Assembly: GCF_040687965.1 (NCBI RefSeq) | Contig: NZ_CP156084.1 | Location: forward strand, 2,480,501-2,544,500 | Direction: 5' to 3' | Source of the DNA: Methylocystis echinoides | GTDB lineage: Bacteria > Pseudomonadota > Alphaproteobacteria > Rhizobiales > Beijerinckiaceae | Length of the DNA: 64,000 nucleotides | Shown: positions 254-57,958 of the stretch, piece by piece | Layout of the letters: each line of letters starts with the position of its first letter | Position numbering within the stretch: position 1 is the stretch's first letter | Notes under the pieces: generated by a model | The model's input: only the letters and a program-made list of their open reading frames with translations | The model's database searches: none | What the model was told of the DNA's origin: nothing | Position numbers and translations under genes: made by a program

Positions 254-2146
<1,893 letters not shown>

Positions 2147-17384: not shown

Positions 17385-17402
17385 CAAAGGGAGCGCGGAG
17401 AT

Positions 17403-17918
17403 ATGAAGGCCTTGCCGGAAAAAACCTTCCCCGTCTCCTGGGACATGTTCCACAGGGACGCGCGCGCCCTCGCCTGGCGGCTCGCCTCGATCGGCGGCTT
17501 CTCGGCGATTGTCGCCGTCACCCGCGGCGGCCTGGTGCCGGCTGGCATCATCGCCCGCGAACTCGGCATTCGCGTCATCGAGACCGTCTGCGTGGCGAGC
17601 TACCACGAGGAGACGGAGCGCGATGCGATTCAGGTGCTCAAGCCCCTGACCGAGACGATCCTGTCGCGGCCAAGCGAAGAAGTGCTGATCGTCGATGATT
17701 TGGTGGACACGGGCGCGACCGCCAGGGCCGTGCGGGAGATGCTGCCGCGGTCGCATTTCGCGACCGTCTACGCCAAGCCGCAGGGGCTGCCGATGGTCGA
17801 CACTTTCGTCACCGAAGTCTCGCAGGACACCTGGATCTATTTTCCCTGGGACACTGGCCTGTCCTTTCAGGCGCCGATCCGCAAGACGCAGGACCTGCGC
17901 GAGAAAATCCGACGCTGA
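17403..17918 (+). CDS. gpt: Xanthine phosphoribosyltransferase
   Basis: A 171-aa type I phosphoribosyltransferase. The PRPP-binding signature [14 protein letters not shown] is at about residues 97-110, with the [11 protein letters not shown] loop near residue 40 and the C-terminal segment ISQ-like WIYFPWDT that is typical of bacterial Gpt. It salvages xanthine and guanine to nucleotides. It lies close behind the CinA-like gene and ends 56 bases before the tRNA-Leu gene. Confidence 0.92.
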
Positions 17919-17974
17919 AATCTAAGCTTGTCGGCCTCGCCGGGCGCGCCCTATAAGAGACGCGTCGCGTGCAA

Positions 17975-40422: not shown

Positions 40423-40706
40423 ATTTGTTTCGTATCTTCAATCGCGGCGGCACCGCGCCCGTTGCGCGCGAGCGTTTGCAGATCCTGCTCGCGCATGAGC
40501 GCACCGCCGCGAGCAAACAGGACCTTCTCGCGATCCTCCATAAGGAAGTGCTCGCGGCCATCTCCAAACATGTCGCGGTCGAGCCGGACAAGGTCGAGGT
40601 GAAAGTCCATCGCAGAGACGAGATGTCGGTCCTCGAAATCGGGATCGAGATCGACGGAGAAGCGATGACGATCCCGGCGGCCCTCGCAGACGACAGGGCC
40701 GCCTGA
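40419..40706 (+). CDS. minE: Cell division topological specificity factor MinE
   Basis: A 95-aa protein with the MinE core VARERLQILLAHERTA, EVLAAISKHVAVEPDKVEVKVHR and a C-terminal dimerisation domain. It stimulates MinD ATPase and confines division inhibition to the poles. It ends 4 bases before the stop of the convergent acyl-CoA synthetase gene, with no visible terminator. Confidence 0.96.
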   Translation: MNLFRIFNRGGTAPVARERLQILLAHERTAASKQDLLAILHKEVLAAISKHVAVEPDKVEVKVHRRDEMSVLEIGIEIDGEAMTIPAALADDRAA

Positions 40707-40710
40707 TCGT

Positions 40711-42780
40711 CTATCGGGGGCTCACGGCGCGCATGCGCGCGTCGACCATCGTGAATGTTTCGCCGACGCCGATGATCGGGTTGAGGTCGAATTCCGACAC
40801 CCAGCCGGCCGCGGCGAACCAGCGCGACAACTCCGAGATCAGTCCCGCGAGGGCGTTCCTGTCGATTGGCGGCGCGCCCCTGTAGCCGTCGAGAAGCTTG
40901 CCGCCCTTCAATTCGTCGAGCATGGCGCGCGCCTCTGCGACCCCAAAGGGCGCGAGCCGCAGCGCCACGTCATTCAGCGCTTCCACCCAAACGCCGCCCA
41001 ACCCGAAAAGCACGAGCGGCCCGAAGGACGCGTCGCGACGGCCGCCGATGACGAGTTCAAGGCCAGCCGGCGATTGCTTTTGCACAAGCGCGGGACCCGG
41101 CCCGAGCCGCGCGCAAAAATCTTCATAGACGCGCGCGACGCTTGCCTCATCGCAAAGGCCGAGACGCACCGCGCCCTGATCGCTCTTATGCGTCAATCCG
41201 GCGCGCTCGGCCTTCACGACGACGGGAAAGCCGAGTTCCGCCGCGCCTGCGCACGCTTGCTTCGCGCTCGCCGCCATGACGAAAGGCGCGACGGAAAAGC
41301 CCTGCCGCGCGAGGAGGGAAAACGCGTCCGCCGTCGCGATCCAGCCGTCCGGTCCGACGGCGCCGGGAGAGGCGATTGCGTCCAACGGCGGCGGGAGATC
41401 GGCGGCCGGTCGGGTTCGTAGAGCGGCGAGCGCCGTCGCGGCTCCGGCTGGCCAGAGATGGCATGGAATGCCGGCGGAGAGCAGACGAGCGCGATTGGAA
41501 TCGGCCGCGCGCGGCGCCACCCAGCAAATATGCAGCGGCTTTTGCGAGCCGCCTGCGCGCGCCGTCGCTTGCGCGTCGATGATCGCCGCGCTGACTTCCT
41601 CCATCAGCGCGGAACGCTGCAGGAGCACGGGGACGACCGCGTCGACTTCGTCGCTTTCCATCAATTGGGCGACACACGCCCCATACATGCGTGAGAAGCG
41701 CGCCCAGTCGGTCGTCACGTCGATCGGGTTGATGGCCGAACCATGCGCGGGCAGCTCGCGCGCAAGCGCCTCTTGCAGCTCTCGCGAGAGGGCAGGAACG
41801 GCGAGGCCTTTCTCTTCGAGAAGATCGGTCAGCTCGACGCCGACGCCGCCAGAGTTGGTGATCACCGCGACGTTCTTCCCGCGCAGCGGCGGCTGCCAGT
41901 CGAGCGCGGCGGCGACATTCAGCAGGGCGTAGCCATCCTCGACCACATGCGCGCCGGCTTGCCGCAAAGCCGCCTCGACGACGACCGCGTCCGTCGACAG
42001 CGCGGCGGTGTGGCTCGCGGCGGCGCGCTGCCCTGCGGGACGACGCCCGGTTTTCAACACGACGACGGGTTTGCGTTTGGTAATGTCTGCAAGAGCCTCG
42101 AAGAGGCGCCTGCCGTCGCGGATTGATTCGAGCAACAAGGCAATGACCGTCGTTTCCGGATCGTCGGCCAGATACGCCAATATGTCCGTCTCATTGAGGT
42201 CGGCCTTGTTGCCGAGCGCGACGATTTTCGAAAATCCTACGCCTTCATCCATAGATCGCGAATAAGCCGCCATTCCGTAAGCGCCGCTCTGGGTGATGAG
42301 CGATACGCCGCCCTTCTTTGGCAGGCCAATCGAAAGGGAGGCGTTGAGGCCGCAACCGGCGCTGATGACGCCGAAGCAATTGGGGCCGATGAGACGCACG
42401 CCTTGGGCCGCGGCCGCCTCGAGCGTTCGACGCTGCAATTCCGCGCCTTGTGGCCCAACTTCGGCAAAGCCGCCGGTAATGACGACGGCGACGGGAACGC
42501 CCGCCTTGCCGCAATCCTCGATGACTCCGGGCACGCTCGCGGCCGGCGTGACGATGACGGCCAAATCGACGCCCGTCGGCGCGGCGTCGAGTCGTGAATA
42601 GGCGGGCGCGCCGAGCAATTCGCGGGCCGATGGGTGGATGGCGACGACCTGGCCCTTAAAGCCGGATTCCTGCGCCGTGAGGTTCTTCAAGAAAAGAGTT
42701 CCGGCCTTGCCGGGCGTCGCAGAAGCGCCGACCACGGCAACGCAGCGCGGAGCGAACAGTGCGTTTCGCCAGTTGCTCAT
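40711..42780 (-). CDS. NDP-forming acyl-CoA synthetase (acetate-CoA ligase, ADP-forming type)
   Basis: A 689-aa enzyme of the succinyl-CoA synthetase-like family with fused alpha and beta parts. The CoA-binding domain is at the start (CVAVVGASATPGKAG), the phosphohistidine motif ASHTAAL holds His257, and an ATP-grasp domain lies at the C-terminus (FPVVVKAERAGLTHKSDQGAV). It interconverts a carboxylic acid, ATP and CoA with acyl-CoA, ADP and phosphate. As last gene of the CoM/epoxide operon (4-base overlap upstream), it would plausibly activate the acid made from the epoxide. Which acid is unknown. Confidence 0.9.
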   Translation of the reverse strand: MSNWRNALFAPRCVAVVGASATPGKAGTLFLKNLTAQESGFKGQVVAIHPSARELLGAPAYSRLDAAPTGVDLAVIVTPAASVPGVIEDCGKAGVPVAVVITGGFAEVGPQGAELQRRTLEAAAAQGVRLIGPNCFGVISAGCGLNASLSIGLPKKGGVSLITQSGAYGMAAYSRSMDEGVGFSKIVALGNKADLNETDILAYLADDPETTVIALLLESIRDGRRLFEALADITKRKPVVVLKTGRRPAGQRAAASHTAALSTDAVVVEAALRQAGAHVVEDGYALLNVAAALDWQPPLRGKNVAVITNSGGVGVELTDLLEEKGLAVPALSRELQEALARELPAHGSAINPIDVTTDWARFSRMYGACVAQLMESDEVDAVVPVLLQRSALMEEVSAAIIDAQATARAGGSQKPLHICWVAPRAADSNRARLLSAGIPCHLWPAGAATALAALRTRPAADLPPPLDAIASPGAVGPDGWIATADAFSLLARQGFSVAPFVMAASAKQACAGAAELGFPVVVKAERAGLTHKSDQGAVRLGLCDEASVARVYEDFCARLGPGPALVQKQSPAGLELVIGGRRDASFGPLVLFGLGGVWVEALNDVALRLAPFGVAEARAMLDELKGGKLLDGYRGAPPIDRNALAGLISELSRWFAAAGWVSEFDLNPIIGVGETFTMVDARMRAVSPR

Positions 42781-43781
42781 GAGGCCTGCTCCGGGAAAGA
42801 CGCGAACAGCGCCGGCGCGCCGCCCGTATGGAGAAAAAGCACGTCGTCGACGTCGGCAAAGGCGCCGCCCCCCAGCAGATTGAGATAGCCCCCCATCGCC
42901 TTCCCCGTGTAGACAGGGTCGAGAAAGATCGCTTCGGCGCGGGCGACAGCGGCGATCGCCTCCTCGCCTTCAGGCGACGGGACGCCATAGCCGGGGCCAA
43001 TGAATGCGCCATGCACGCGGCAGTCGATGGCGTTTAAATTCGGGCGGGCGCCGATCAGCGCCGCGGCGTCTTCAGCGAGCGCATGGGCGCGCGCGGCGGC
43101 TTCCTCCGCAGGGCGGCTGACACTTATCGCCTCGATGCGCCAGGGGGCGCCCAAGAGCGCCGTTCCCAGGAGCCAACCGGCGAGCGTGGCGGAGCCGCCA
43201 ACCGCCATGACGACGCGGGTCGGCGCAACGCCGAGCGCCGCGCATTGAGCGAGCGTCTCCTGCGTCGCCAGCACATGTGCGAGCGCCGCAAGCGGGCAAG
43301 CGCCGCCGCGCGGCACGACATAGGGCCGGCCGCCCCGCGCGTCGATTTCAAAGGCCTTGCGCGAAATCTCGCGGTCGACGGAAGCGCGATCCGGATCGTC
43401 GGTAAAATGAACCTGTGCGCCGAGCGTCACAGCGAGTCGATAATTGCCTTCCGCGCGCCTCGGCTTGGCGCCCCAATAAACGGCGATGCAATCGAGACCA
43501 GCGAGCCCTGCGATCCCGGCGGCGGCGCGAACGTGGTTGGAGAGGGGACCGGCTCCCGTTATCAAAGCGTCGGCGCCGCGGCTCACGGCGTCGCCAACGA
43601 CGAGATCGAGCGCGCGCACTTTGTTGCCGCCGAACGCCGTTGGAATGAGGTCGTCACGCTTGAGCCACAGACGCGGTCCGCCGACGGCCGCGGAGAGACG
43701 CTCCGCGGCATGCAGGGGCGTGGCCTGCGCCAAGAGCGACAGGCGCGGAAGCGCATCGAGCTTCGCAGCCCATTCCGTCAC
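42777..43781 (-). CDS. xcbE: PLP-dependent D-cysteine desulfhydrase-like enzyme (XcbE-like, CoM biosynthesis)
   Basis: A 334-aa fold-type II PLP enzyme of the ACC deaminase/D-cysteine desulfhydrase family. The PLP Lys lies in LIPTAFGGNKVRALD, with TGAGPLSNHVRAAAG and the glycine-rich phosphate loop VVMAVGGSATLAGW. In Xanthobacter the corresponding XcbE1 is assigned to a late, C-S bond cleaving step of CoM synthesis. The GTG start at 43781 overlaps the preceding stop (GTGA); the more distant start at 43826 lies inside the neighbour. In gene order it follows the B, C and D homologues as in Xanthobacter. Confidence 0.75.
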   Translation of the reverse strand: MTEWAAKLDALPRLSLLAQATPLHAAERLSAAVGGPRLWLKRDDLIPTAFGGNKVRALDLVVGDAVSRGADALITGAGPLSNHVRAAAGIAGLAGLDCIAVYWGAKPRRAEGNYRLAVTLGAQVHFTDDPDRASVDREISRKAFEIDARGGRPYVVPRGGACPLAALAHVLATQETLAQCAALGVAPTRVVMAVGGSATLAGWLLGTALLGAPWRIEAISVSRPAEEAAARAHALAEDAAALIGARPNLNAIDCRVHGAFIGPGYGVPSPEGEEAIAAVARAEAIFLDPVYTGKAMGGYLNLLGGGAFADVDDVLFLHTGGAPALFASFPEQAS

Positions 43782-45139
43782 GTCGCGCCTCCCTCCTGGA
43801 GAAGCCGGTCGACGAGCTCCTGACATTGCCCGATCTGCGCCGAAGGGTCGAGCAAGCGCGCAATCTCTTCTGCGGAGAGATGCGCTCGAATATCCTTGTC
43901 ACGTGCGACTGCGTCAGAAAAAGTACGTCCCTCCCGCCGCGCCGCAGCGGAGAGCGCGTGGACAATCCGATGGGCGGTCTGTTTGCCGACGCGTCGCGCA
44001 AGCGCAAGCATCACGCCTTCCGACAGCGCGAAGCCGCCGTCGGCGAGAAGATTGGCGCGCATCCGGTTCGCATCCACTTCGACAGTTTCGAGCAGCGTAG
44101 CGACCAGGGCGATCGCCTTGCCGGCCGCCATGGTGAGTTGCGGGATCGCGTGCCATTCAACCTTCCACGAACGTCCGTCGCGCTCGTGATCGTGCACGAG
44201 ACTTTCGCTCAGCAGCCCGGCGTTGGCGCGGACGACCCGCGCCAACGTTCCCAAATGCTCGGCGATTTCAGGATTGCGCTTGTGCGGCATTGTGATGCTG
44301 CCGACGCCTTGCGCCAGCGGGGCTTCGCGCAATTCGCCGATTTCGCTGCGCTGAAGATTATAGACTTCATGGCCGATGCGATCGGATGTCGAGGCGGCAA
44401 GCGCCAGCAGCTGCGCCCATTCGACGAAAATGTCGCGGCTCGACGTCCAGGACAGGTCTGGCGCGTCGAGGCCAAGGCGTTCGAAAAAATCGCGCTGAAC
44501 CAAGAGCGCCGTTGCGCCCAGCGCCGACAGACTGCCGACGCCGCCGCATAATTGGCCGACGTTCATGCGCGCCTGCGTCTCATTGAAGCGCGTGCGATGG
44601 CGGCGCAACTCTGCAAGCCAGCCTGCGACCTTGAAGCCAAGAGTAATCGGCAGTCCCTGCTGCCCATGCGTGCGGCCGGCCATCACCGTGTCGCGATGAC
44701 GCCGGCAGAGCGTTTCGCAGGCGGCGATCGAGCGCTCGAGGTCTTGGACGATGAGCGTGCGCGCCTCCCGGAGAGCAAGAACGAGCCAGGTGTCGGCAAT
44801 GTCTTGGACCGTGGCGCCGAAATAGAACCATTCCGCGCCGGAAGCAGAGCATCGGCGCGCGACGGCGTCGATCAAGCCTGCCGTCGAGTGGCCGGTCGCT
44901 TCATATCCTGCACGGCATTCTTGCAGGAAATCGTCGTCGATGCGGAGCGACGCGCAGGCCGCGACAATGTCGCGCCCGGCGTCCGCCGGGATGAGCCCAT
45001 GCTCCGCCTCGATCGATGCGAGCAGGCCGAGCAAGTCCACCCAGCGCCGCGTACGCGCCGCGTCGGTGAAAAGCGCCTGCGTCGGCGGCGTCGCCCAGGC
45101 GTCGCCGTAAATTCGCGAGCCGAATGACCAGTCGCTCAT
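43778..45139 (-). CDS. xcbD: Aspartase/fumarase-superfamily lyase (XcbD-like, CoM biosynthesis)
   Basis: A 453-aa enzyme resembling adenylosuccinate lyase and carboxymuconate cycloisomerase. The superfamily signature loop is GVGSITMPHKRNPEIAEH; other conserved regions are AGRTHGQQGLPITLGFK and TGHSTAGLIDAVARR. A housekeeping purB role is unlikely given its operon. In the bacterial CoM pathway one such enzyme is thought to add cysteine to sulfoacrylate. Both ends overlap neighbours by 4 bases. Assignment rests on family plus context. Confidence 0.75.
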   Translation of the reverse strand: MSDWSFGSRIYGDAWATPPTQALFTDAARTRRWVDLLGLLASIEAEHGLIPADAGRDIVAACASLRIDDDFLQECRAGYEATGHSTAGLIDAVARRCSASGAEWFYFGATVQDIADTWLVLALREARTLIVQDLERSIAACETLCRRHRDTVMAGRTHGQQGLPITLGFKVAGWLAELRRHRTRFNETQARMNVGQLCGGVGSLSALGATALLVQRDFFERLGLDAPDLSWTSSRDIFVEWAQLLALAASTSDRIGHEVYNLQRSEIGELREAPLAQGVGSITMPHKRNPEIAEHLGTLARVVRANAGLLSESLVHDHERDGRSWKVEWHAIPQLTMAAGKAIALVATLLETVEVDANRMRANLLADGGFALSEGVMLALARRVGKQTAHRIVHALSAAARREGRTFSDAVARDKDIRAHLSAEEIARLLDPSAQIGQCQELVDRLLQEGGAT

Positions 45140-46650
45140 CCCGCCTCCGATACGAAGGCGGCGGCCTCGCCGAGAAGTCGGTCGATCGCCTCTTCACGAC
45201 GACCGCGCAGCGCCTGGAGCGCGTCGCGCTTTACGCGAATCTCGCTCTTGAGCTCTTCGGCCATCGCCGCCACTTCTGTCTCCGCTGCGCATCCGTAGTC
45301 GGTGCGCGCCGCTACGCAGGCGGCGGGATCCAGCGCGGTGAAGACGACCTGCTGGATATGCTTCCGGTCCAAAAAAACGTCGGCCGCCCGTAATGACGCG
45401 AGAACGTCGTCGACCGTCGCGTCGGCCAGCGTTTGCCCCGTCGCTTCGAGCCCGCTCATAAGCGCGCCAACAATCCCATGCGCGCGCCGGTAATCGATCT
45501 TGGCTTTGGCGCTGAGGCGTTCCGCGAGATCGGTCGCACAGACGCTGCGGTCGGCAAGCGCAGCGCCGGCGCGCGCCGCGTCGAACGTCAAGTCTTTGAG
45601 ACATTCGGCGACGAGCAGGGCGGCTTCCGCGACCGACGTCACGGCGTCGGGCGCCGCGGCATAGACGAAGAGGCGATTGTCCATCTGGCCAGAGGGCGTG
45701 CGTCCGGCGGCGCTCACCCCGGTCTGAACGCCGATGAGGCGGTTGGCGGTCGCGCGCACAAAGGCGAGCGCGAAGGGGTTGCGTTTTTGCGGCATGATTT
45801 TGCTGGCGCGCGCATGGCGGTCGGCAAGGCGGACGAATCCAAATTCGGCGCTTGCAAAAATCATCAGATCTTCCGCGAGGCGGTCGAGGTTGACGCTTGC
45901 CGCGACGGCGATCGAACAGGCTTCGATCGAAAGGTCGTGCAGCCACATGGCGTCGCGGGCGTGGCGGACCGGCGCGGGAAATCCCAACGACGCGGCCAAT
46001 GCCCAGCGATCCTGCCGAATTGTCGATCCATTGGAGCTGCCGATGCCGGCTGGGCACTGATCGGCGCGCGCATGAAGAGCTACGACGCGATCGACATCGC
46101 GCAGGACAGGAAAGGCGAAAGTCTGCAAGTAATGACCGAAGGTCGTCGGCTGCGCCGCTTGCAGATAAGTGTAGTCGGGCATCAAACTGCCCTTGTGTCT
46201 CAAAGACGTTTCGCTGAAGGTCTCGGCGCTCGTCAACAGCGCATCGCCCAGGCCGCATAACGCGTCGCAGAGCGTGAGATGAAAGGCCGTGGTCAGCGCT
46301 TCGCGCCTCGCGCGCGCGACGCCGAGCCATGCGGCCGAAGACGTTTTGCCAGTGAGCCAGGCTTCGCGGTTGGTGTAGAGATCGCCGAATTCCGCGCGAG
46401 GGGCGAAGCTCTCGGGCGCGACCTGCAGGTCTAGCAGCGCGGCGACAAGCTCTCGCGCCGCCGGCGCTGGAATGACCCCATCACTCGCCAGGCGCAAGGT
46501 ATGCGCGAGGTCGACCCATCCCACCGCTCTGACAAGGCCTGTCTGCGCTGTCAGCTCGCTTGCAAACGCCGTATTCACCAACCGCTCGGAAGGCTCCTGC
46601 AAGAGGCGTTCGCCAATCTCCAAGGCCGCAACGCGTGCGTCATGGTTCAT
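45136..46650 (-). CDS. xcbC: Aspartase/fumarase-superfamily lyase (XcbC-like, CoM biosynthesis)
   Basis: A 504-aa enzyme resembling argininosuccinate lyase. The signature loop is [35 protein letters not shown] matches the conserved second region and [12 protein letters not shown] a further loop. The C-terminal 100 residues include an unusual Glu/Arg-rich helix. In Xanthobacter, XcbC1 is reported to eliminate phosphate from phosphosulfolactate to give sulfoacrylate. It directly follows the ComA-type gene with a 4-base overlap, matching the xcbB-C-D-E order. An argH role is unlikely here. Confidence 0.75.
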
Positions 46651-47528
46651 TCCGGGCCTCTCGTTTCATCGAGAGGTCCGTTCTCGATCCGCGAAGGATC
46701 CCATAACCCGGCTTCTTTAGAGCGACGCGCAACGGCGTCGAAGGTTTCATAGCGGAGCCCACAACGCAGCGCCTCGAGCGCGAGACATTCCTCGGGCGGG
46801 ATATTGCCGAGGCTGACGTTGGCGCCGAACCGGCAGACGAGATAGGCTTGTTGGGCGCGCAGTGGCGCCTCCCAGATGATACGAGCGCCCGCATCGCCAA
46901 CGCGGCGCATGATTTCATCGAGGAACGGCCCGCGGATCTCTCCGCCCTCATCATAAATGCCGACGCCGCAACCGCTCTCCCTGCCTTCGACAATGACCCA
47001 GCCCGCGCCCCATTCGAGATCCTGAATGATTTGCGCGGCAAGTTCGCCGGCCTCCGGCTGGCGCGACGGATCCTTTCTTCCAACTTCCGTAATCGGCTGA
47101 AGACCAGCGTTTCGCGCGCAATCGATCATGCGGCGGCGCCGCTCGCCAGGCAAGCTGATTGTGCCTTCGGAAATTTCCGCGGCGCCAAAGCCCAGCGCAG
47201 CCGCGCGCGTCATGAAGACGCGGCAATGCTCCTGCACCACCGCGGCCTCGAGAAGCGTGCCCCCCGGATAAGCAAGAATGTCATGCGCGCGCAGCATGTC
47301 GAGCTTTGCCTCAAGGCAGGCGCGCGGCATGAGCGCGGTTGTTCCAAAGCCGAATTTCCAGTGATCGATATGTGCGGCGGAGATGTCGAGAATATCGCGC
47401 ATGGCGGCGAGCCCCACGCCCGTGTCGATGACCATCGTCACGCCGACTGGGCGCGGGCGCCGAAGCCTTCGATCGACGATGGCGTCGAGGGACCAGACGC
47501 CGCGCCATGCCGAGTCGGTCGCGCTCAT
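46647..47528 (-). CDS. xcbB: Phosphosulfolactate synthase (ComA/XcbB type)
   Basis: A 293-aa TIM-barrel enzyme of the ComA family, which adds sulfite to phosphoenolpyruvate to give phosphosulfolactate, the first step of CoM synthesis. Conserved segments are [72 protein letters not shown] and [10 protein letters not shown]. In bacteria it marks CoM-using alkene degraders, although relatives occur elsewhere. It overlaps the unknown gene upstream and the XcbC-like gene downstream by 4 bases. Confidence 0.88.
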
Positions 47529-48451
47529 GCAGGGCGCTCCTCGTCGACACTAGAGGCGAGGCTGCGCAATGCGCGTTCGATCATCGGTAGATCGGCGCCC
47601 CAGGGAACCACCATGACATTCCCGTCGCGCTCGATGTCGAATTCGAGCAGACAGCATTTTAGAAGCGTCGGCTCCTCGCGCCGCCCCGCAATCGCCCGCG
47701 GACACATTTCAATGCGCGGCGGTTCATCGCCGTAATAATGGCGGTGAAATTGAAGGCTGCGCGCGCAGCCGATCAGCGTCCAATCTTGGCGCGCGGCCGG
47801 ACGCTCGTCCAAATAATGAACAGGGACGCCAAGATCATCGAGCCCGCCAGAACGGCAGGGGACGAGAAAGGCAGGCGCCGCGCGATCCCGCACGAGCGCC
47901 TTCAACTCGATTCGCTCCAGGATCGGAACAATGGGCGGCAAGTCAGCGTAGCTGAGGACGTGACGCACGAGCTCGAAGAGCTTCGGAGGCTCCGGCGGCG
48001 TAACCTCCACGACGGTTACAACAAGCGGCTTGGGTCGGTGAATGAAATTGACGTGGTCGAATTTGCCTTCGCAAATCAAGGTGCGATCCGCGCCCACCCC
48101 CATGCGAGTTGCGAGCGCGGCGAGCGACGAGGGGTTCCCGCAGTCCGTATCCGGGTCGCGCAGAAACACGCAGCTTTCGGGCAACGCCAGAACCTCCACG
48201 TGTCGAATGGGCGAAAACAGAGGCTCGCGGTCGATCAATTCGACGGCGACGACGGCATGCTCGCCCCGCGGGGAGCGCAAGACGATAAATTCTGTACGGC
48301 GATAGGCCTCCCGATCCATGAAACGCCCGATAATGGCGTCCTCGCTCATCGTGCCGTCATAGGGTTGGACGCTGACGCCGCGATAGGGCAGGGGAACGAC
48401 ATTCGGCCTCCCGCGCAGCGATCGTCGGCTCGGCTCAACAGGGGCGTTCAT
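47525..48451 (-). CDS. Unknown protein embedded in the CoM/epoxide operon
   Basis: A 308-aa soluble protein that I do not recognise. ATG 48451 overlaps the CoA-transferase stop (ATGA) and its own stop overlaps the comA-type start, so it is tightly coupled. Notable segments: [71 protein letters not shown] and [26 protein letters not shown]. It has several conserved-looking Cys and His residues, no signal peptide and no membrane segment. Because the pathway from sulfoacrylate to CoM needs loss of one carboxyl, a role in that decarboxylation is one possibility. This is only inference. Confidence 0.8.
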
Positions 48452-49305
48452 GCCGTCTCCTTCTGCGCTTGGATCTCGAAGCGACGCCGCAAATCCTGTT
48501 CGCGAATCTCCTTCTCGTGAATCCGAAGCGGGTCCATCGCGCGGATCATCTCCACGATTGTGCGGCATGGCGGCGCAATGACGCCAATGCTGTCCGACAT
48601 CCGCAGCACGAAGCCTGTGTTGTCTTGAATCTCGTCGGCCGACACGTCCGGGTATGTCGCCGCCAGCCGCATATGGCCCTCCGCGTCGAAATCGAAGAGC
48701 CCAAGCTCGGTTACGAGAAATTGCGGCCCTCGGCCCACATGCCCGTAAGCAGCCCGCGGGCGGCCCTCGGAATCGCGATGGCCGAAGCTCGTAATGAAAT
48801 CACACCGCTCCACGAGGCGAAAGCGGCGGCGTCCTTCTGCATCAGGGGGAGAGCGGTGCGCCGGGGTCCACAGCGTCACATGCTGCGCGTCGCAGGAGAG
48901 ATTGCCGCCGCCGCCGCCGCCAGGCAGTTTCATTGTGACGCGTCGGCCGCCGAGCGCGGTAACATTACAGTTTCCCCATTTGTCGATCTGAAGCCCCGAA
49001 AGAAACATGCGTCCCATTCGGCCCGCCGCGGCGAGATCGAAAAGCTCTTCTATGTCGAGAGAGCAGGAAGCGCCGCGATCGACGACCCAGTCGTTCGTGG
49101 TCGGCGTCAAAAACGGTGGTTGCGGATCGACGCCGTAAGTTGCGCCGGCGATGAGAACCATTTGCGGTGCATGCGTACGCTTCGCCACATGCATGGCGAG
49201 CTGGGCCAGCGGAGAGCCGAAGCCGTGAAAAACCAGTTCGCCATTTGTGATCGTGCGCGCGAGCGCCGCTATCATCATCTCGCCGAGCGTGCAGTATAGC
49301 GTCAT
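48448..49305 (-). CDS. CoA-transferase family I, beta subunit (glutaconate/IpdB type)
   Basis: A 285-aa subunit of a heteromeric CoA transferase. TLGEMMIAALARTITNGELVFHGFGSPLAQLAMHVAKR is the usual N-terminus. A glycine-rich loop PGGGGGGNLSCDAQ and the segment TELGLFDFDAEGHMRLAATYPDVSADEIQDNTGF follow. The partner subunit is the preceding gene (4-base overlap). The pair would move CoA between acids; with acetoacetate formed by the nearby carboxylase, activation of acetoacetate is a sensible but unproven role. Confidence 0.85.
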   Translation of the reverse strand: MTLYCTLGEMMIAALARTITNGELVFHGFGSPLAQLAMHVAKRTHAPQMVLIAGATYGVDPQPPFLTPTTNDWVVDRGASCSLDIEELFDLAAAGRMGRMFLSGLQIDKWGNCNVTALGGRRVTMKLPGGGGGGNLSCDAQHVTLWTPAHRSPPDAEGRRRFRLVERCDFITSFGHRDSEGRPRAAYGHVGRGPQFLVTELGLFDFDAEGHMRLAATYPDVSADEIQDNTGFVLRMSDSIGVIAPPCRTIVEMIRAMDPLRIHEKEIREQDLRRRFEIQAQKETA

Positions 49306-50261
49306 GCCTGCGCCTCTTCGTCATAGAGCCGCATCCAGGCCTCCTCGCCGTCACGCCATGATTGCAGACGAGTGCAAATCGTTTCGCCGCCGATCAGATC
49401 GAGATAGGCCTCGTGGGTCGATGCGCCGTGGACATAGAGATCCAGATAATGCGCTTTGAATGCGGCGGGACCCTGCCGGGCCGCATGATGATAGAGCGAC
49501 ATATGAGCCCGGTCATAAGCATGAAACGGATAGCAGGCCGTCGGGTGAGCGCCCATTGGGACTTCGGCGAGGGCGGCGACATAAAAATAAGGGACGTTTT
49601 TTCCCGGCAGGCTTCGTAATTCGCTTGGCGGAATAATTTGTTCGACCGTTGCAACGACTGCTTTCGACGCCTTTGCAAACAGAATGTCGGCAACCGGCGG
49701 CCCCTGTATCAGAAGATTGCCTGCCGCGTCGCCGAATTGGGCGTGGATAAGCGCGACATCGGGTTCGATCGCCGGCGCCAGGAGCAACTCGTCTCCCGTG
49801 AAAGGGCAGGTCATCACTTTATATTCGGGATGAAGAGCTACGAAGTCTGTGCCGCGAACAGACCGGATGGGCATGAAGGGCAGGCCTTCAATCGCGGCGC
49901 GGAGCTGCTGAACCAGAGTGTAGCAACATGAATCGCTTGCCTCGACGGCCCCCGACTCGCACGCGCGACGAAAATTTGGCGCTAATCCAAAATCCTGCTC
50001 GAAGCCCACATAGCTTTCCATTGAGCGCACAAGTGCGCCGCCTGCGCAAAGGAGATCGATGTCGATTCCATGCGCTGACCCGACCGCCGTCAGGCCTTTG
50101 ATCCCTCGCCTTAAGATCGCGCGCAGAAGCGCCATCGGCGCGCGCGATGACAAGCCGCCGCCTATTGCAACGGTGGCCCCATTGGGGACCATCGCGGCAA
50201 GTTCATCGAGACCCCGCCGCTTGTCGGGGTCGGTGTATATCGGCCGGGGCGAGGCGGGCAT
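49302..50261 (-). CDS. CoA-transferase family I, alpha subunit (glutaconate/IpdA type)
   Basis: A 319-aa partner of the following beta subunit. GATVAIGGGLSSRAPMALLRAILRRGIKGLTAV is the CoA-transferase start motif; PFTGDELLLAPAIEPDVALIHAQFGDAAGNLLIQGP follows. No active-site Glu can be placed with confidence from reading alone. The start codon overlaps the GMC oxidoreductase stop (TAATG). It is closer to glutaconate and IpdAB transferases than to classic acetoacetate ScoAB. Confidence 0.85.
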   Translation of the reverse strand: MPASPRPIYTDPDKRRGLDELAAMVPNGATVAIGGGLSSRAPMALLRAILRRGIKGLTAVGSAHGIDIDLLCAGGALVRSMESYVGFEQDFGLAPNFRRACESGAVEASDSCCYTLVQQLRAAIEGLPFMPIRSVRGTDFVALHPEYKVMTCPFTGDELLLAPAIEPDVALIHAQFGDAAGNLLIQGPPVADILFAKASKAVVATVEQIIPPSELRSLPGKNVPYFYVAALAEVPMGAHPTACYPFHAYDRAHMSLYHHAARQGPAAFKAHYLDLYVHGASTHEAYLDLIGGETICTRLQSWRDGEEAWMRLYDEEAQA

Positions 50262-51853
50262 TAGACGATCCCCCTTCTAATAAGATCAGCCGCCTTTTCG
50301 GCAATCATAATGACGGGCGCATTCGTGTTCCCACTTACGATCGTCGGCATCACTGATGCGTCGACGACGCGCAGCGCTTCGACGCCATAGACGCGAAGCG
50401 CGCTGTCGACGACAGACATGTCGTCCTTCCCCATCTTGCAGGAGCCTGCCGGGTGCCATGTCGTCGAAGCCGTCCGGCGCACGAAGGCTTCGATCTCTGC
50501 ATCGCTTCGCGCGTGAGCGCCGGGCGCGATCTCCTCGCCGCGAATATCGTCGAAGGCCTTGGCGTAAAGGAGCTGGAGATTGCAGCGAACGCCGGCGACG
50601 GCGCACCTCAGATCCTCGGCGACGCTCAGATAGTTGAAGTCGATAATGGGCCGGTCGAGCGGATCAGCAGAGGCCAGCAGGACGGCGCCACGACTACGGG
50701 GACGATTAATATAGGCAGTAAAGGTCAAGCCATGACGGCTGAGGGCTCCGGCTTCGGGGAAATCCGGCGCGAGTTGGGCCAAAAAGAAAAGCTGAAGCTC
50801 CGGTCGGGTCTCCGAGCTGTCGATTTTCACGAAGGCGCCGGCTTCAAGAAAGTTCGACGCAAGCGGACCGCTGCGGTCCTTATGGTATTGTCGCCTTGCA
50901 GCCTCCTTCTCTGCTTCGGGAAGGCCCCCAAAGGTCAGCGGCGCCGTAATTGCGCATCTGACGCGCGTATGGAGGTGATCTTGCAAACTTTTCCCAACGC
51001 CGGGCAAATCGACGCGCACGTCGACGCCGCAGCTTTCGAGCGCGGCGCGCGGTCCGATGCCGGAGAGCATGAGCAATTGCGGAGATCGCACGGCGCCGGC
51101 GGATAGAATGACCTCATTCGCCGCACGAGCGCTCTCCGCAGCGCCGAGGCGCAGATAGTCGACGCCGAGCGCGCGTCGGCCTTCCAGGCGTATCTTCAAC
51201 GCGCGCGCATGGGTGAGGACCGTGAGATTGGGTCGCCGACGCGCCGGGGAAAGAAAGGCTTCAGTGACGCTGCAACGGGCGCCGTCGGCAAGCGTGGCTT
51301 GCAGCGGCCCGCACCCATCTTGTGAGCATCCGTTGAAGTCCGGATTGAAAGGAAGCCCGATCTCCTGGCCGGCTCGGAGATAGCGCTCCACGAGCGGGTT
51401 GGGCTTGTGGCTTGAAACGATTAACGGACCATCGCTGCTGTGAAAGCGATCGGAGAGGCGCCTGTTGCCTTCCGAACGGAGAAAGTAAGGCAAGACCTCC
51501 TCGTAAGACCAACCCTCCGCGCCGCGCTCGGCCCATTCGTCGTAGTCGAAGCGGTTGCCGCGAATGTAAATCATGTAGTTTATGGCGCTCGAGCCGCCCA
51601 GCGTCCGACCTTGCGGCAAGAAGATGCGTCGGCCGTTCAGTCCGGTCTGTGGCGCAGTGCGGTCGCCCCAGTCGTACGGGCTGTCTTGAAGCTCGCCATA
51701 AAGCGCCGGCGTCGACGCAATCGGCGAGCGGCACTCGCCTCCCGCTTCCAGTAGGAGAACTTTAGCCGCAGGGTCTTCGCTCAACCTGCTCGCCAAGACG
51801 CATCCAGCCGATCCTGCGCCGATGATGATGTAATCGTAAAGCTGCGTCTTCAT
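50261..51853 (-). CDS. GMC family FAD-dependent alcohol oxidoreductase
   Basis: A 530-aa glucose-methanol-choline oxidoreductase. The FAD-binding motif IIIGAGSAGCVLASRLSE is at residues 8-25, GGSSAINYMIYIRG is GMC signature 1, SAGAVRSPQLLMLSGIG signature 2, and the catalytic pair is His in TTWHPAGSCKMG and Asn in SGNTNAPV. It oxidises an alcohol to an aldehyde or ketone. In this operon it may act on a hydroxyalkyl-CoM or a related alcohol. ATG 51853 starts at MKTQLYDY; the upstream in-frame region is not conserved. Confidence 0.9.
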   Translation of the reverse strand: MKTQLYDYIIIGAGSAGCVLASRLSEDPAAKVLLLEAGGECRSPIASTPALYGELQDSPYDWGDRTAPQTGLNGRRIFLPQGRTLGGSSAINYMIYIRGNRFDYDEWAERGAEGWSYEEVLPYFLRSEGNRRLSDRFHSSDGPLIVSSHKPNPLVERYLRAGQEIGLPFNPDFNGCSQDGCGPLQATLADGARCSVTEAFLSPARRRPNLTVLTHARALKIRLEGRRALGVDYLRLGAAESARAANEVILSAGAVRSPQLLMLSGIGPRAALESCGVDVRVDLPGVGKSLQDHLHTRVRCAITAPLTFGGLPEAEKEAARRQYHKDRSGPLASNFLEAGAFVKIDSSETRPELQLFFLAQLAPDFPEAGALSRHGLTFTAYINRPRSRGAVLLASADPLDRPIIDFNYLSVAEDLRCAVAGVRCNLQLLYAKAFDDIRGEEIAPGAHARSDAEIEAFVRRTASTTWHPAGSCKMGKDDMSVVDSALRVYGVEALRVVDASVMPTIVSGNTNAPVIMIAEKAADLIRRGIV

Positions 51854-51891
51854 TCTTGATGCATTCTCGATCGTTCTCGGCGGACGCCGAT

Positions 51892-52119
51892 TCAATCGAC
51901 GGCGGAGCAAACGTAAGGGGCGGGCGAGGCGCAGCAGAGGCAGTTCGCGCCATGTCCCTCTTCCCACGGATGCGCCTGGACAAGCTTGGAGGCGTCAAGT
52001 TGCGCGCGTCTTCCGCCGCAGGCGCCGCAAACCCATTCGCTCGGCATTTGGCATCCCGCCAGAACCAAGGTCGGGGAGACGTTTCCGCAATCGGGGCAAG
52101 CGATCGTATAGACAGGCAT
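51892..52119 (-). CDS. Small cysteine-rich zinc-ribbon protein
   Basis: A 75-aa protein between xecA and the GMC gene. Cysteines lie at 8, 11, 23, 31, 34, 60, 62, 63 and 71; C8-x2-C11 with C31-x2-C34 forms a zinc ribbon, resembling FmdB-type starts (MPVYTIACPDCG). The extra C-terminal CLCC cluster is unusual. Start ATG 52119 was chosen because it begins the recognisable domain. It may assist zinc loading of the zinc enzyme EaCoMT or regulate; no function is known. Confidence 0.65.
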   Translation of the reverse strand: MPVYTIACPDCGNVSPTLVLAGCQMPSEWVCGACGGRRAQLDASKLVQAHPWEEGHGANCLCCASPAPYVCSAVD

Positions 52120-52171
52120 GCCGGCGTTCCCGCGTGAGAGGCGCGTCGCCTGGCGACGCGCCAAATCTTGA

Positions 52172-53302
52172 CTACTCCGCGGCGACGGCGCGTCCTGCCT
52201 GCTCGCGCACAAGCTTGACGCCCTCCACCAAAGCGTGAAGCTTGTCCTGCGCAATATAGCGTTGCAAGAGGATGAGGCCGCAGTCTGTCGTAACGCCGAG
52301 CCGGTCGGCGGGTATGACTTTGAGGAGCGCGTTGATCCGGTCGGCCACCTGCGCCGCCGTCTCGGTGATGGTGCTTTTCACGTCGATGACGCCCGCCCAG
52401 AAATCCACATTGTCGGGCAAGGGAAACTCTTTGAATGCGTCGAGGCCGGACATGTCGTCGACCCGGCGGCCGCAGTTCTCGAGATTGAGGACGTCGAACC
52501 GCGCTTCATAGGCCTTCGGCACGATCGAGCGCGTCGCGGCCGGGGCCCTGGCGTCTGTCTTGCGCTTGGCCAGATCGTAGATTTCGCCAGGCTTGCCGGT
52601 CTCGTCGGGATAATAGGCTGGCGTCCCGCCCCAATTTCCCCAGCAGACATGCACCACGATGCGCGCGTTCTTGACGCCGTCGACGGCCGTATTGAAGGCC
52701 TCGATCGCCCAGTCCTCAAAGAAATAAGGCCAGGTGAACTCATCGAGCTGTATGAAATCCACGCCAAGCGCGTCGACTTCGCGGATATCTTCGTTTATCG
52801 CCTTCGCAATGGCGAGCGCGCGGTCACGAGAACTCTTGTAATGGAGATCGTTCGTGCATTGCGCCAAAACCTGGACGCCCGTGTATTGCACCTTGGTTGG
52901 CTTGGTTGTCGCGCGTTTCAGCGCCCGCGCCTGTTCGACCATGATCGCGCCGCGGCGCTTGATCTCATGCTCGATCGTTCCCGTATGCAGACGGCTGTAG
53001 ATCGGGAAGCCGAGATGGCCGCCGCGCAGGTCGTAGCCCAGTCGCCTGAAATAATGGTAGACCGCCGTGTCAGCATAGTTGTCGCCGTGGATACGTCCGT
53101 CTGAGACGATATCCAGGCCGGCGCGCTCCTGATCGAGCGCAATGGAGCCAATGGCGTCTTCGAGAGCTTCGCGGCTCAAGGAATCCGGCGGCTCGCGATC
53201 TCCCGCGAAATAGCGCGCAAAAGAGGCGTCCCACCAGCGCGGATTCGGGTAGTTGCCGACCATGCTGGTTGGTATGAGAATGTCTTTCCCGGCGATCTTC
53301 AT
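52172..53302 (-). CDS. xecA: Epoxyalkane:coenzyme M transferase (EaCoMT)
   Basis: A 376-aa zinc enzyme of the MetE C-terminal superfamily that opens aliphatic epoxides with CoM thiolate to give hydroxyalkyl-CoM. The zinc site His-x-Cys...Cys is visible as His218, Cys220 (VVHVCWGNW) and Cys341 (TTDCGL), matching the spacing of Xanthobacter XecA, which is nearly the same length. MVGNYPNPRWWD and FIQLDEFTWPYF are further family motifs. The ATG at 53302 has a GGGGAG ribosome-binding site; the codon at 53317 is TTG. It heads the CoM/epoxide operon. A MetE-type methionine synthase is less likely because the whole context is CoM-related. Confidence 0.9.
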   Translation of the reverse strand: MKIAGKDILIPTSMVGNYPNPRWWDASFARYFAGDREPPDSLSREALEDAIGSIALDQERAGLDIVSDGRIHGDNYADTAVYHYFRRLGYDLRGGHLGFPIYSRLHTGTIEHEIKRRGAIMVEQARALKRATTKPTKVQYTGVQVLAQCTNDLHYKSSRDRALAIAKAINEDIREVDALGVDFIQLDEFTWPYFFEDWAIEAFNTAVDGVKNARIVVHVCWGNWGGTPAYYPDETGKPGEIYDLAKRKTDARAPAATRSIVPKAYEARFDVLNLENCGRRVDDMSGLDAFKEFPLPDNVDFWAGVIDVKSTITETAAQVADRINALLKVIPADRLGVTTDCGLILLQRYIAQDKLHALVEGVKLVREQAGRAVAAE

Positions 53303-53433
53303 GCTCTCCCCTTTCAATTTCTTTTTTGCGCTTGAGCTGACCGGCCCCCCTGTGACACGTAATATCTATGATGAACGTCCTGAATCTTCCCCGAGTTCCA
53401 CACAACCTGGCAAGCGTTTACGTGGCAATGCGT

Positions 53434-53446
53434 TGGCGATGCGCCA
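53434..53446. promoter_or_regulatory. Candidate operator upstream of xecA
   Basis: TGGCG-ATG-CGCCA is an inverted repeat with 5-bp arms, 132-144 bases before the xecA ATG. It is preceded by a partial direct repeat (GGCAATGCG, then GGCGATGCG). The site could bind the nearby LuxR-type regulator. The rest of the 53303-53520 gap shows no gene. Confidence 0.35.
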
Positions 53447-53520
53447 CTATCTGAGATTAGTTGCTTAGACCCATGACCATCATCATCCAAATGGGTGAAG
53501 CGAACGGCGGTCTTTCGTGC

Positions 53521-54327
53521 CTAGACCGCGCTTTGACCTAGGCGTTCTTTGAAAAATTCAATGACCCGAGCCTCGGCCATTCGCGTCTCGCCGCGGGGAT
53601 CGTCGTCGCGCAGATGGATTGTGAGAACGGAGTGGGCGGGCTTTGGCGCATCTTGCTTTGCGCTTTGCGGGTCGAGTTCAATCGCTTCGAAGCGATCGCC
53701 GAAGGTTCGACGAAGCGCGTCGAATCTTTCTTGCGGAACGTAAGGGTCATCCTTAAAGCGCAGGCCGAGAATGGAGAGGTCCTCATTAGCGAGCCTCTCT
53801 TTGACGCAAGCAATTTCTTCGGGCGAGGCTCCAAGGGCGGCGCGACGCGCGGCGCCGAGCGGAAGCGGCAGCGAGGGCTCGGCGAGAACAGGCGCCACAA
53901 CACTGGGTTCGGTCGTCATGGCGAGGGCGAAGTTCCCCGTCAGACACATGCCGATTGCGCCGACTCCGTTTCCCCTGCAATCTTCATGCGCCTTACGAGC
54001 CAGCGCGCGCAGCCAATCGACGATGGGGCTCGAGCGATCCGCGGCCCAAAACGAGAATTCCCGCCGCAAGCACAGCGTCGAGGCGAAGGACGAAAGCGCA
54101 TATGCAGACGAAACCGGCCGTCCGGGGTGGCCGAACAGGCTTGGCAGATAACATGTAAACCCGGCGTCGACGAGGCGATCGCCGAAACGGACGACGAGCG
54201 GATGAAGACCGGGCAGTTCATGGATGACGATGACCGCAGGGCCTGCGCCGCGCTTGAAGACGGCGCGCGTCCAGCCGCCATGTTGGAACTCGAAGCAATT
54301 GTAGCGATCAAGAGAAAAGGATTGCAT
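53521..54327 (-). CDS. Dienelactone hydrolase family protein
   Basis: A 268-aa alpha/beta hydrolase. The nucleophile is Cys in GAIGMCLTGNFAL, the triad Asp is in RFKDDPYVPQERFDAL, the His is in HSVLTIHLRDDDP, and VIVIHELPGLHP supplies the Glu near the oxyanion region. All are features of dienelactone hydrolases (C-D-H triad). It may hydrolyse an ester or lactone by-product of epoxide metabolism, or be unrelated. Divergent from the LuxR gene, upstream of and co-directional with xecA. Confidence 0.85.
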   Translation of the reverse strand: MQSFSLDRYNCFEFQHGGWTRAVFKRGAGPAVIVIHELPGLHPLVVRFGDRLVDAGFTCYLPSLFGHPGRPVSSAYALSSFASTLCLRREFSFWAADRSSPIVDWLRALARKAHEDCRGNGVGAIGMCLTGNFALAMTTEPSVVAPVLAEPSLPLPLGAARRAALGASPEEIACVKERLANEDLSILGLRFKDDPYVPQERFDALRRTFGDRFEAIELDPQSAKQDAPKPAHSVLTIHLRDDDPRGETRMAEARVIEFFKERLGQSAV

Positions 54328-54453
54328 CTGGCTGCCTTTCTAATTGCTAAGGCCAGCGTTCCAGCTTCAATCAAGGACGCGACCCTTTGACGTTTGGCGG
54401 AAGGACATATTAGGATCGGATGCGGCTTCTGAGGTAACCCTCAACGAGGCTTT

Positions 54454-57116
<2,663 letters not shown>

Positions 57117-57138
57117 GAGAAGTCGCGAAAGGCAGCGC

Positions 57139-57906
57139 GTGACGAAAGGATTGTCCGACAGAGTCGTAATGGTTACAGGCGGCGCGTCGGGGCTTGGGCT
57201 CGCTATTGCGCGTGATCTCATGCGCGAGGGCGCCACGGTCGCCATCGTTGACATAGATGGCGCATGTGCGGAGCGAGAAGCGCAAGCGCTTCGGGCGGCG
57301 GGAGGCCGGTCCCTCGGCGTCGGCGCGGACGTTTCAAAGTGTGGGGAGCTTTCGGACGCTAAGAAACAAATCGAGGATGCGCTCGGTCCTATAGAGGGGC
57401 TTGTCAATAATGCCGGCGTCGCCGTTCTCGGGGCCGTCCATGACACGGATGACGGACTATGGCGCCGCGTGATGGACGTCAATCTGGACGGTGTGTTCTA
57501 TGCCTGCAGGGCGATCCTTCCCTCCATGCAGGCGCGCGGGCGAGGCGCCATTGTCAATATCGCGTCCATCGCTGGTTTGGTGGGCGTTCCCAACATGGCG
57601 GCCTATTGCGCTTCGAAAGGGGCGATTATCGCTCTCAGTCGCCAGATGGCGATCGATTACGCTCGATCAGGCATCCGTGTGAATGCGATTGCGCCGGGCA
57701 CGATTGGTTCGACGCGCATGGGAGCGGCGCTGCTCGGGAGCGATCTCACGCCAGAGGCCCAGGCCCGCCGCTTGGCGAAATATCCGCTGGGGCGATATGC
57801 AGAAGCCGGAGAGATTTCGAAGGCGGCAGTTTTTCTTCTATCAGATGACGCGTCGTTCATCACGGGGACTGTGCTGACAGTCGATGGCGGGATGACAGCG
57901 TATTAA
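57139..57906 (+). CDS. xecE: (S)-2-hydroxypropyl-CoM dehydrogenase-like SDR
   Basis: A 255-aa short-chain dehydrogenase from GTG 57139. Cofactor motif TGGASGLGLA is near residue 13, NNAG at 90-93, and catalytic Ser143, Tyr156 and Lys160 (YCASK) are present. QARRLAKYPLGR places Arg211 and Lys214 exactly where Xanthobacter S-HPCDH binds the CoM sulfonate, so the S-enantiomer-specific branch is the best match. It oxidises hydroxypropyl-CoM to 2-ketopropyl-CoM, the substrate of xecC upstream. No second (R-type) dehydrogenase is in the window. Confidence 0.82.
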   Translation: MTKGLSDRVVMVTGGASGLGLAIARDLMREGATVAIVDIDGACAEREAQALRAAGGRSLGVGADVSKCGELSDAKKQIEDALGPIEGLVNNAGVAVLGAVHDTDDGLWRRVMDVNLDGVFYACRAILPSMQARGRGAIVNIASIAGLVGVPNMAAYCASKGAIIALSRQMAIDYARSGIRVNAIAPGTIGSTRMGAALLGSDLTPEAQARRLAKYPLGRYAEAGEISKAAVFLLSDDASFITGTVLTVDGGMTAY

Positions 57907-57928
57907 CGCGCGCACAAGGATAATGAGA

Positions 57929-57946
57929 GGCGCCCCGATCGGCGCC
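57929..57946. terminator. Hairpin between convergent xecE and the HPF gene
   Basis: GGCGCC pairs with GGCGCC across the loop CCGATC in the 52-base gap between convergent genes. There is no T run on either side, so it may be only a weak bidirectional terminator. Confidence 0.3.
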
Positions 57947-57958
57947 CCCGCCGTCAAG

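Follow-up and report, generated by a model that had tools for sequence, protein, structure and literature searches.

A predicted coenzyme M-dependent epoxide-disposal cluster with a GMC oxidoreductase in the chromosome of Methylocystis echinoides

Gene content and organization of the locus

A window of 64,000 nucleotides from Methylocystis echinoides (assembly GCF_040687965.1, contig NZ_CP156084.1, positions 2,480,501 to 2,544,500 of the forward strand) carries a cluster of genes predicted to function in coenzyme M (CoM)-dependent epoxide metabolism, together with CoM biosynthesis genes and a gene for a GMC oxidoreductase. A first-pass annotation of the same DNA had described a complete locus for CoM-dependent epoxide catabolism that also encodes the synthesis of CoM; this description was well supported by the sequence, whereas the host, the novelty, and the end product required correction. 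The features of the locus are listed below, with identities to proteins of Xanthobacter autotrophicus Py2 and Nocardioides JS614.

40707..57958, no strand: extra block of about 17.25 kb comprising the entire cluster and flanked by minE and an S30AE/cold-shock-domain gene
40711..42780, minus strand: ADP (NDP)-forming acyl-CoA synthetase (ACS); Pfam CoA_binding_2, Succ_CoA_lig, and ATP-grasp_5; 44% identical to the ACS of the JS614 cluster
42777..43826, minus strand: XcbE, pyridoxal phosphate enzyme of CoM biosynthesis; NF052537, 519 bits (cut-off 450)
43778..45139, minus strand: XcbD, aspartase/fumarase superfamily; NF052536, 682 bits (cut-off 600)
45136..46650, minus strand: XcbC, aspartase/fumarase superfamily; NF052535, 726 bits (cut-off 575)
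46647..47528, minus strand: XcbB, phosphosulfolactate synthase (ComA type); TIGR03849, 293 bits (cut-off 280)
47525..48568, minus strand: XcbA-family protein (DUF7714); NF052538, 491 bits (cut-off 150); likely start ATG 48451
48448..49305, minus strand: CoA-transferase-fold subunit B; PF01144; best solved relatives 5n00/5mzw (entries of the glutaconate-CoA-transferase family)
49302..50261, minus strand: CoA-transferase-fold subunit A; PF01144; best solved relative 5mzw_A
50261..51967, minus strand: GMC oxidoreductase, choline dehydrogenase group; PF00732/PF05199; closest solved structure 9lq0; likely start ATG 51853
51892..52119, minus strand: zinc ribbon protein, 75 aa; two CxxC pairs and more cysteines; weak PF09723 match, 21.7 bits (cut-off 34.4)
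52172..53317, minus strand: XecA, epoxyalkane:CoM transferase (EaCoMT); 77% identical to Py2 XecA
53521..54327, minus strand: alpha/beta hydrolase (dienelactone hydrolase type), between the XecA and LuxR genes; PF01738
54454..55530, plus strand: LuxR-type regulator (GerE helix-turn-helix); weak PF00196 match, 20.1 bits (cut-off 23.5)
55545..57116, plus strand: XecC, 2-ketopropyl-CoM oxidoreductase/carboxylase (2-KPCC) family; 784 bits to 1mo9; Tyr at the His506 position
57139..57906, plus strand: XecE, S-type hydroxyalkyl-CoM dehydrogenase of the short-chain dehydrogenase/reductase (SDR) family; 277 bits to 4gh5 and 157 bits to the R-type 2cfc

All genes named in the first-pass annotation were recovered as intact open reading frames at the coordinates and on the strands it gave, and their identities (xecA, xecC, xecE, the ComA-type gene, xcbB-C-D-E, GMC, CoA transferase, zinc ribbon, and synthetase) were borne out by NCBIfam and Pfam matches and by sequence identities, with the top NCBIfam CoA-ligase models for the ACS scoring below their own cut-offs. 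The alpha/beta hydrolase gene (53521-54327, minus strand) had been omitted. The genes form a minus-strand unit at 40711-53317 (ACS to XecA) and a plus-strand unit at 54454-57906 (LuxR, XecC, and XecE). When the longest reading frames were taken, five of the eight neighboring pairs from ACS to GMC overlapped by 4 bases, and the other three overlapped by 49, 121, and 1 bases; reading of the sequence indicated that later starts (GTG 43781 for XcbE and ATG 48451 for XcbA) would turn the 49- and 121-base overlaps into 4-base ones. A promoter scan of 53250-54500 gave one weak match against 0.4 expected and was not used. The alpha/beta hydrolase and the LuxR-type regulator were found in the window only, with no relative in the other loci searched.

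The five CoM-biosynthesis proteins XcbA, B, C, D, and E are co-located, and all five scored above curated NCBIfam cut-offs. The global identities of XcbB, XcbC, XcbD, and XcbE to their Py2 counterparts were 61%, 52%, 65%, and 52%, respectively. The gene product previously noted as an unknown protein is real and was assigned to the XcbA family. An XcbA homologue was present in 27 of the 33 loci compared (L003-L035), and on the Py2 plasmid the homology lies in an unannotated gap (L033, 24621-25645), where it is broken into two segments, each in its own frame, that join at 25277. In the re-cut protein numbering, Cys199, Cys229, Cys250, Cys266, Cys267, His133, His236, and His238 were invariant in 16 of 16 aligned sequences, a pattern that might be that of a metal or Fe-S protein. 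The idea that the main role of CoM here is that of a redox or storage thiol rather than in epoxide metabolism can draw on a report that CoM protects methanogens from oxidative stress (PMC12713407). We regard it as barely credible for this locus, where the CoM genes come after those of XecA and GMC, in the same orientation and with junctions that overlap; all loci were found through XecA, so the frequency of CoM genes without XecA is not readable from this set.

A homologue of the zinc ribbon protein was likewise present in 27 of the 33 loci, spanning Methylocystis to Acidimicrobiia, and in Py2 it corresponds to an unnamed protein beside XecA (L033, 21200-21400). No match was obtained in L023, JS614, or Mycolicibacterium NBB4, nor in L027, L030, and L031, which end near XecA. 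The XecA-adjacent zinc ribbon is apparently a constant part of such clusters.

Residues and family membership of XecA, XecC, and XecE

XecA was 77% identical to Py2 XecA and 50% identical to JS614 EtnE. The plasmid matches after the first three, named methionine synthases and similar, did not exceed 31.2% identity among the best 20 of 253 records, and the possibility that XecA is a MetE-type enzyme, raised with the earlier annotation, was thereby disfavored. The zinc ligands His223, Cys225, and Cys346 (His-x-Cys...Cys) were invariant in 39 of 39 aligned rows, although these include repeated copies of a single gene. MetE-type enzymes have this zinc motif as well, so that it does not separate EaCoMT from them.

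XecC and XecE were 64% and 56% identical to the Py2 enzymes, respectively, the latter value being for the S-type SDR, against 41% for the R-type. XecC retains Cys82, Cys87, His84, His137, Met140, Arg56, Arg365, and Phe501 of Py2 2-KPCC, which include the redox disulfide, the CoM-binding arginines, His84, and His137 of that enzyme. However, a Tyr replaces His506 of the Phe501-His506 dyad, which presumably promotes carboxylation in 2-KPCC, and the window XecC may therefore not be a carboxylase. Among 28 XecC sequences longer than 400 aa, position 506 was Tyr in 14 and His in 14. The XecC tree needs two changes, and no fewer are compatible with its starred branches; the first falls in Methylocystis, beside His-bearing Methylocapsa enzymes, and the other in gammaproteobacterial methanotrophs. 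An R-type SDR was present in the locus or genome for 14 of 14 His-bearing XecC and absent with all 14 Tyr-bearing ones (12 genome-wide; L018 and L027 in the locus only), but this association comprises only two independent contrasts (p = 0.5). By sequence, the window protein belongs to the XecC family, and carboxylase activity is not assumed. The SDR of the earlier annotation, XecE, is now typed as S type. The SDR tree has two sides, one holding the Py2 R enzyme and the other the Py2 S enzyme, these two being the only characterized members; XecE groups with the latter and retains the RRLAK (Arg/Lys) motif, which we take to be the sulfonate motif.

These features bear on a Py2-type propylene route, in which XecA, XecE, and XecC would convert epoxypropane to acetoacetate, the synthetase and the CoA transferase would form acetoacetyl-CoA, and GMC would replace the missing R-specific dehydrogenase. 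The conserved XecC residues, the S-type grouping of XecE with its Arg/Lys motif, and the oxidation of propylene by particulate methane monooxygenase (pMMO) are in line with such a route. On the other hand, Tyr replaces His506 in half of the XecC sequences, the window's included, and the window genome has no R-type SDR at E 1e-50.

Host, monooxygenases, and distribution of XecA

The genome containing the window (4.35 Mb, 4 contigs, 100% complete) falls in the GTDB genus of the named Methylocystis records and gave two pmoA matches, corresponding to two pMMO copies. The rhizobial host proposed earlier was rejected on these grounds in favor of a Methylocystis methanotroph; since the order is Hyphomicrobiales, the label was not absurd. 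The monooxygenase search covered pMMO and soluble di-iron monooxygenases (SDIMO, PF02332); no SDIMO match was obtained in this genome or in G277 of the same genus, while the three positive controls (the Py2 plasmid, the JS614 plasmid, and the same-genus genome G164) all gave matches. The window genome thus showed no alkene monooxygenase of the SDIMO kind, which a growth-supporting alkene pathway would call for. With two pmoA copies and no SDIMO, the epoxide would most likely arise from co-oxidation by pMMO, and we consider it very probable that the CoM-epoxide pathway is fed in this way.

A search of 397 genomes of the family gave XecA matches in nine. Five of these nine (the window genome G000, G135, G164, G277, and G317) belong to the genus, which is represented by 39 genomes; all 39 have handles of the 397-genome search, and the 34 without a match were taken from the handle numbers.

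Insertion site of the block

Two genomes of the same genus, G312 and G322, which are not among the nine XecA matches, have a MinD 94% identical to that beside the cluster, with MinD and the S30AE/cold-shock gene adjacent. Their DNA aligned to the window as far as the minE stop at 40706 and resumed at 57972, with 165 bp between the aligned segments. The cluster-free site in two species of the genus points to an insertion of about 17.25 kb in the species of the window. In G135, G164, G277, and G317, XecA is distant from the S30AE/cold-shock gene or on another contig, which places the cluster at another site in those genomes. Judged from these alignments, the block is most likely a horizontally inserted pathway.

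Several observations weigh against this reading. Clean loss from both relatives would leave the same arrangement. The left boundary (40650-40900) showed neither direct nor inverted repeats, and a Pfam scan of 20 genes of the region gave no integrase. In 4-mer composition, the block (distance 0.0998) was not unusual compared with other window segments (0.086-0.154). Composition was rejected as a proof of transfer, as the block lies within the range of the window; it gives no sign of foreign origin.

In the Methylocystis ND1 cluster, a phage-type integrase gene (L003, 5269-5907) lies about 1.6 kb past XecE and is a possible trace of mobility. The window genome also has a second MinD (C1:496044-496856), 74% identical to the island-adjacent one. 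The product of the gene at 57959-58525 (minus strand) contains two domains, S30AE (ribosome hibernation) and cold-shock, and has a match in 30 of the 39 genus genomes. Elsewhere in the window, 17-2302 (plus strand) gave a strong match to the Pfam model "NAD-specific glutamate dehydrogenase" opposite a 630-aa minus-strand reading frame (254-2146); we take this model to be an antisense artefact of DnaK genes.

Substrate site of the GMC oxidoreductase

The closest solved structure to the GMC oxidoreductase was 9lq0, an oxygen-dependent choline dehydrogenase. The GMC domains are present and the catalytic residues His505 and Asn547 are retained. We aligned 16 cluster enzymes with eight outgroup GMCs and PDB 9lq0. 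His333 and Arg337 occurred in 16 of 16 cluster enzymes and in none of the nine others, which have D/E/Q/C at 333 and I/Q/Y/V at 337; Arg335 occurred in 16 of 16 and one of nine, respectively. Residues 3-94 of the query corresponded to choline oxidase 228-322 in the PDB search, and His333 falls on position 312 if the last ten residues are gap-free. The acidic residue for the choline cation was thus not found, its place (Glu312) being taken by His333. Glu312 of choline oxidase reportedly binds and positions choline, as the title of a 2008 paper by Quaye et al. has it.

2-Hydroxyethyl-CoM resembles choline in being a primary alcohol with a hetero-atom two carbons away, but it ends in a sulfonate on the other side, so that a change from acid to base would be expected. 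The substrate site looks re-tuned for a CoM adduct, and it is reasonably likely that the enzyme acts on one. A point that counts against this assignment is that, for the role of Glu312, it leans on one paper title.

Occurrence of GMC and its relation to SDRs

The GMC clade of the cluster was present in 15 of 27 XecA genomes (G000, G164, G277, G198, and the genomes of L003, L004, L007, L012, L013, L014, L017, L021, L025, L026, and L028) and absent from 12 (G180 and the genomes of L006, L008, L009, L010, L011, L019, L020, L022, L023, L024, and L032). Its members were 59-77% identical to the window enzyme, and the next matches did not exceed 48%. In L026 (Methylocucumis oryzae Sn10-6), the GMC gene at 16240-17959 is split in two frames. 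SDRs were typed by genome-wide searches with the Py2 R and S enzymes at E 1e-50. Among the 15 GMC-bearing genomes, none had both SDR types, ten had S only, two had R only, and three had neither; among the 12 GMC-less genomes, eight had both types and four had S only, with two S-type copies in L010 and L011. In the Methylocapsa pair G198 and G414, GMC occurs together with an R-type SDR, as would be predicted by the Py2-type route for a stand-in of either hand. The pattern looks like the substitution of one enzyme for another.

Several points weigh on the other side. Four of the 12 GMC-less genomes also lack the R and S pair, and the SDR counts hinge on E 1e-50, which one S-type match barely passes (G410, 2.1e-51). 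On the XecA tree, there were two independent contrasts on starred branches (four on all branches), with a sign test p = 1; with so few contrasts, the exclusion is a pattern and not proof. A JS614-type aldehyde dehydrogenase co-occurs with GMC in 10 of the 15 GMC-bearing genomes, and GMC therefore need not oxidize as far as the acid.

An alternative is that GMC is unrelated to CoM adducts and travels with the cluster in an accessory role, as a dehydrogenase of choline or another alcohol. GMC enzymes are common and promiscuous, the nearest solved relative is named a choline dehydrogenase, and the position of the gene within the cluster differs between lineages. However, the enzyme forms a distinct clade in more than half of the XecA genomes, carries basic residues at the cation site in all 16 sequences, and is kept in a minimal cluster (G277, see below) where SDR and XecC gave no match. 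We consider the accessory role rather doubtful.

A minimal cluster and the CoA-transferase-fold pair

G277 (99% complete, 2% contamination) has XecA, the zinc ribbon, GMC, the CoA-transferase-fold pair, XcbA-E, and the synthetase in the order of the window. The gene order that the first-pass annotation suggested tracing through XecA is thus conserved in this genome, whereas the placement of GMC varies between lineages. At the thresholds used, the G277 genome gave no match for an R- or S-type SDR, XecC, a JS614-type aldehyde dehydrogenase, or DSOR1. G412 and G413 also gave no SDR or XecC match at these thresholds, although the aldehyde dehydrogenase and DSOR1 were found. The window genome gave no match for the aldehyde dehydrogenase or DSOR1 at the thresholds used, and the former was found in none of the five XecA-bearing Methylocystis genomes. 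Replacement of XcbA by an aldehyde dehydrogenase, suggested for Methylohalobius crimeensis, was rejected as a general rule, both genes occurring in L010, L011, L013, L014, and L017; M. crimeensis itself lies outside the set of loci.

G277, G412, and G413, with XecA and GMC and no XecC match, count against the Py2-type propylene route, and the CoA transferase and synthetase are described as hallmarks of ethene rather than propene clusters (PMC6440738). We consider that route unlikely. As to the acetoacetate end product proposed earlier, the Phe-Tyr dyad and a sister cluster in a genome without an XecC match make its formation through the Py2 route uncertain.

Position 53 of the CoA-transferase-fold B subunit, a candidate for the catalytic Glu column, was Ala in 7 of 10 sequences (proteobacterial) and Glu in 3 of 10 (actinobacterial). 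The solved relatives 5mzw/5n00 are, we assume, a decarboxylase with a CoA-transferase fold. Release of CoM by this pair was considered because the Glu of the actinobacterial B subunits is missing from those of the proteobacterial sequences. As a tentative proposal, which we hold with low confidence, epoxide disposal in Methylocystis might run through a flavin branch in which GMC alone converts 2-hydroxyethyl-CoM to carboxymethyl-CoM, followed by a CoA ester, with SDR and XecC being optional; in G277, CoM would be freed by the CoA-transferase-fold pair, or spent as a sacrificial thiol with the adduct shed in a mercapturate-like manner.

Proposed pathway

In the pathway we propose, pMMO would unavoidably co-oxidize ethylene (and propylene) to epoxides, and phosphoenolpyruvate and sulfite would be the starting compounds from which XcbB-C-D-E with XcbA form CoM. 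XecA would join epoxide and CoM to hydroxyalkyl-CoM, and oxidation of its alcohol group would fall to GMC, a flavoenzyme, and to the S-type SDR. From the primary alcohol 2-hydroxyethyl-CoM, GMC would most likely produce the acid by way of the aldehyde, much as choline oxidases treat choline. The synthetase and the CoA-transferase-fold pair would make and process a CoA ester, and XecC would release CoM reductively to give acetyl-CoA (acetoacetate if from propylene). Acetyl-CoA rather than acetoacetate is somewhat the better candidate for the main product. The substrates, the step order, the regulation, and a role in detoxification with carbon salvage rather than growth are what we infer from the gene content.

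The block could also be a relic or unexpressed in this strain. The split GMC gene in the sister cluster L026 indicates that decay occurs, and the regulator of the window has no relative in the other loci. We nevertheless regard this as very improbable, given the intact reading frames, the mostly 4-base junctions, and the catalytic residues retained in XecA, GMC, and XecC (except position 506). Taken together, the results suggest, with a probability of roughly 0.75, that this Methylocystis methanotroph received the block by horizontal insertion and that it encodes a CoM-dependent pathway of epoxide disposal working as proposed overall.

The stretch from hydroxyalkyl-CoM to acetyl-CoA is an uncertain part of bacterial ethylene metabolism, for which a re-charged flavoenzyme and a natural minimal cluster without XecC and SDR provide testable handles. 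The pathway also concerns the ecology of methanotrophs in wet soils, where they would have to survive ethylene, an inhibitor of methane oxidation.

Comparison with known systems

The Py2 plasmid pXAUT01 resembles the window in its XecA, XecC, XecE, and Xcb homologues and in the zinc ribbon beside XecA. Unlike the window, Py2 has an alkene monooxygenase together with SDRs of the R and S types, and its XecC has His506; no CoA-transferase, synthetase, or GMC homologue was found within 41 kb of the plasmid. The ethene/vinyl chloride clusters of Nocardioides JS614 and Mycolicibacterium NBB4 share with the window XecA/EtnE, the CoA-transferase pair, the synthetase, an SDR, and CoM genes including XcbA. 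They differ in having an etnABCD-type monooxygenase, a MEDS regulator, and Glu instead of Ala at position 53 of CoA-transferase B, and XecA is only 50% identical (JS614). The window GMC is similar to choline oxidase/dehydrogenase in its fold domains, His505, Asn547, and a QDHxx loop, and different from choline oxidase in having His333, with Arg335 and Arg337, at the Glu312 position in 16 of 16 cluster enzymes.

The closest counterparts are the methanotroph clusters of Toppings et al. 2024 (PMC11507031). That study reported etnE/CoM clusters in 14 of 150 methanotroph genomes, including 2 of 16 Methylocystis, with a patchy distribution, and proposed that they detoxify epoxyethane made by pMMO. 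In Methylohalobius crimeensis, ethylene induced etnE up to 220-fold by reverse transcription quantitative PCR and raised 11 of 13 cluster proteins without supporting growth; few steps of the ethylene pathway are described as confirmed even in model strains. Like the window, those clusters have EaCoMT, an SDR, a CoA-transferase pair, an NDP-forming synthetase, XcbB-C-D-E, and a DSOR, and no alkene monooxygenase (PMC11507031). The window genome gave no match for a JS614-type aldehyde dehydrogenase or DSOR1 at the thresholds used, and M. crimeensis has a MEDS regulator in place of the LuxR-type one (PMC11507031). GMC, XcbA, and the divergent unit with XecC and XecE set the window apart from that account.

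The first-pass annotation had taken the combination of GMC, an IpdAB-like transferase, and an NDP-forming ligase to be new. The transferase and ligase are published (PMC11507031) and occur in JS614 and NBB4, but neither "GMC" nor "choline" is mentioned in the main text of PMC11507031, whose figures and supplements may show the gene. We found no mention of a GMC oxidoreductase in the papers matched on hydroxyethyl-CoM and epoxyethane, and none of the titles among the matches listed pointed to a further study of the pathway in methanotrophs, in searches outside of which most subscription journals lie. The cluster type of methanotrophs is already published, and its GMC-bearing variant may be new.

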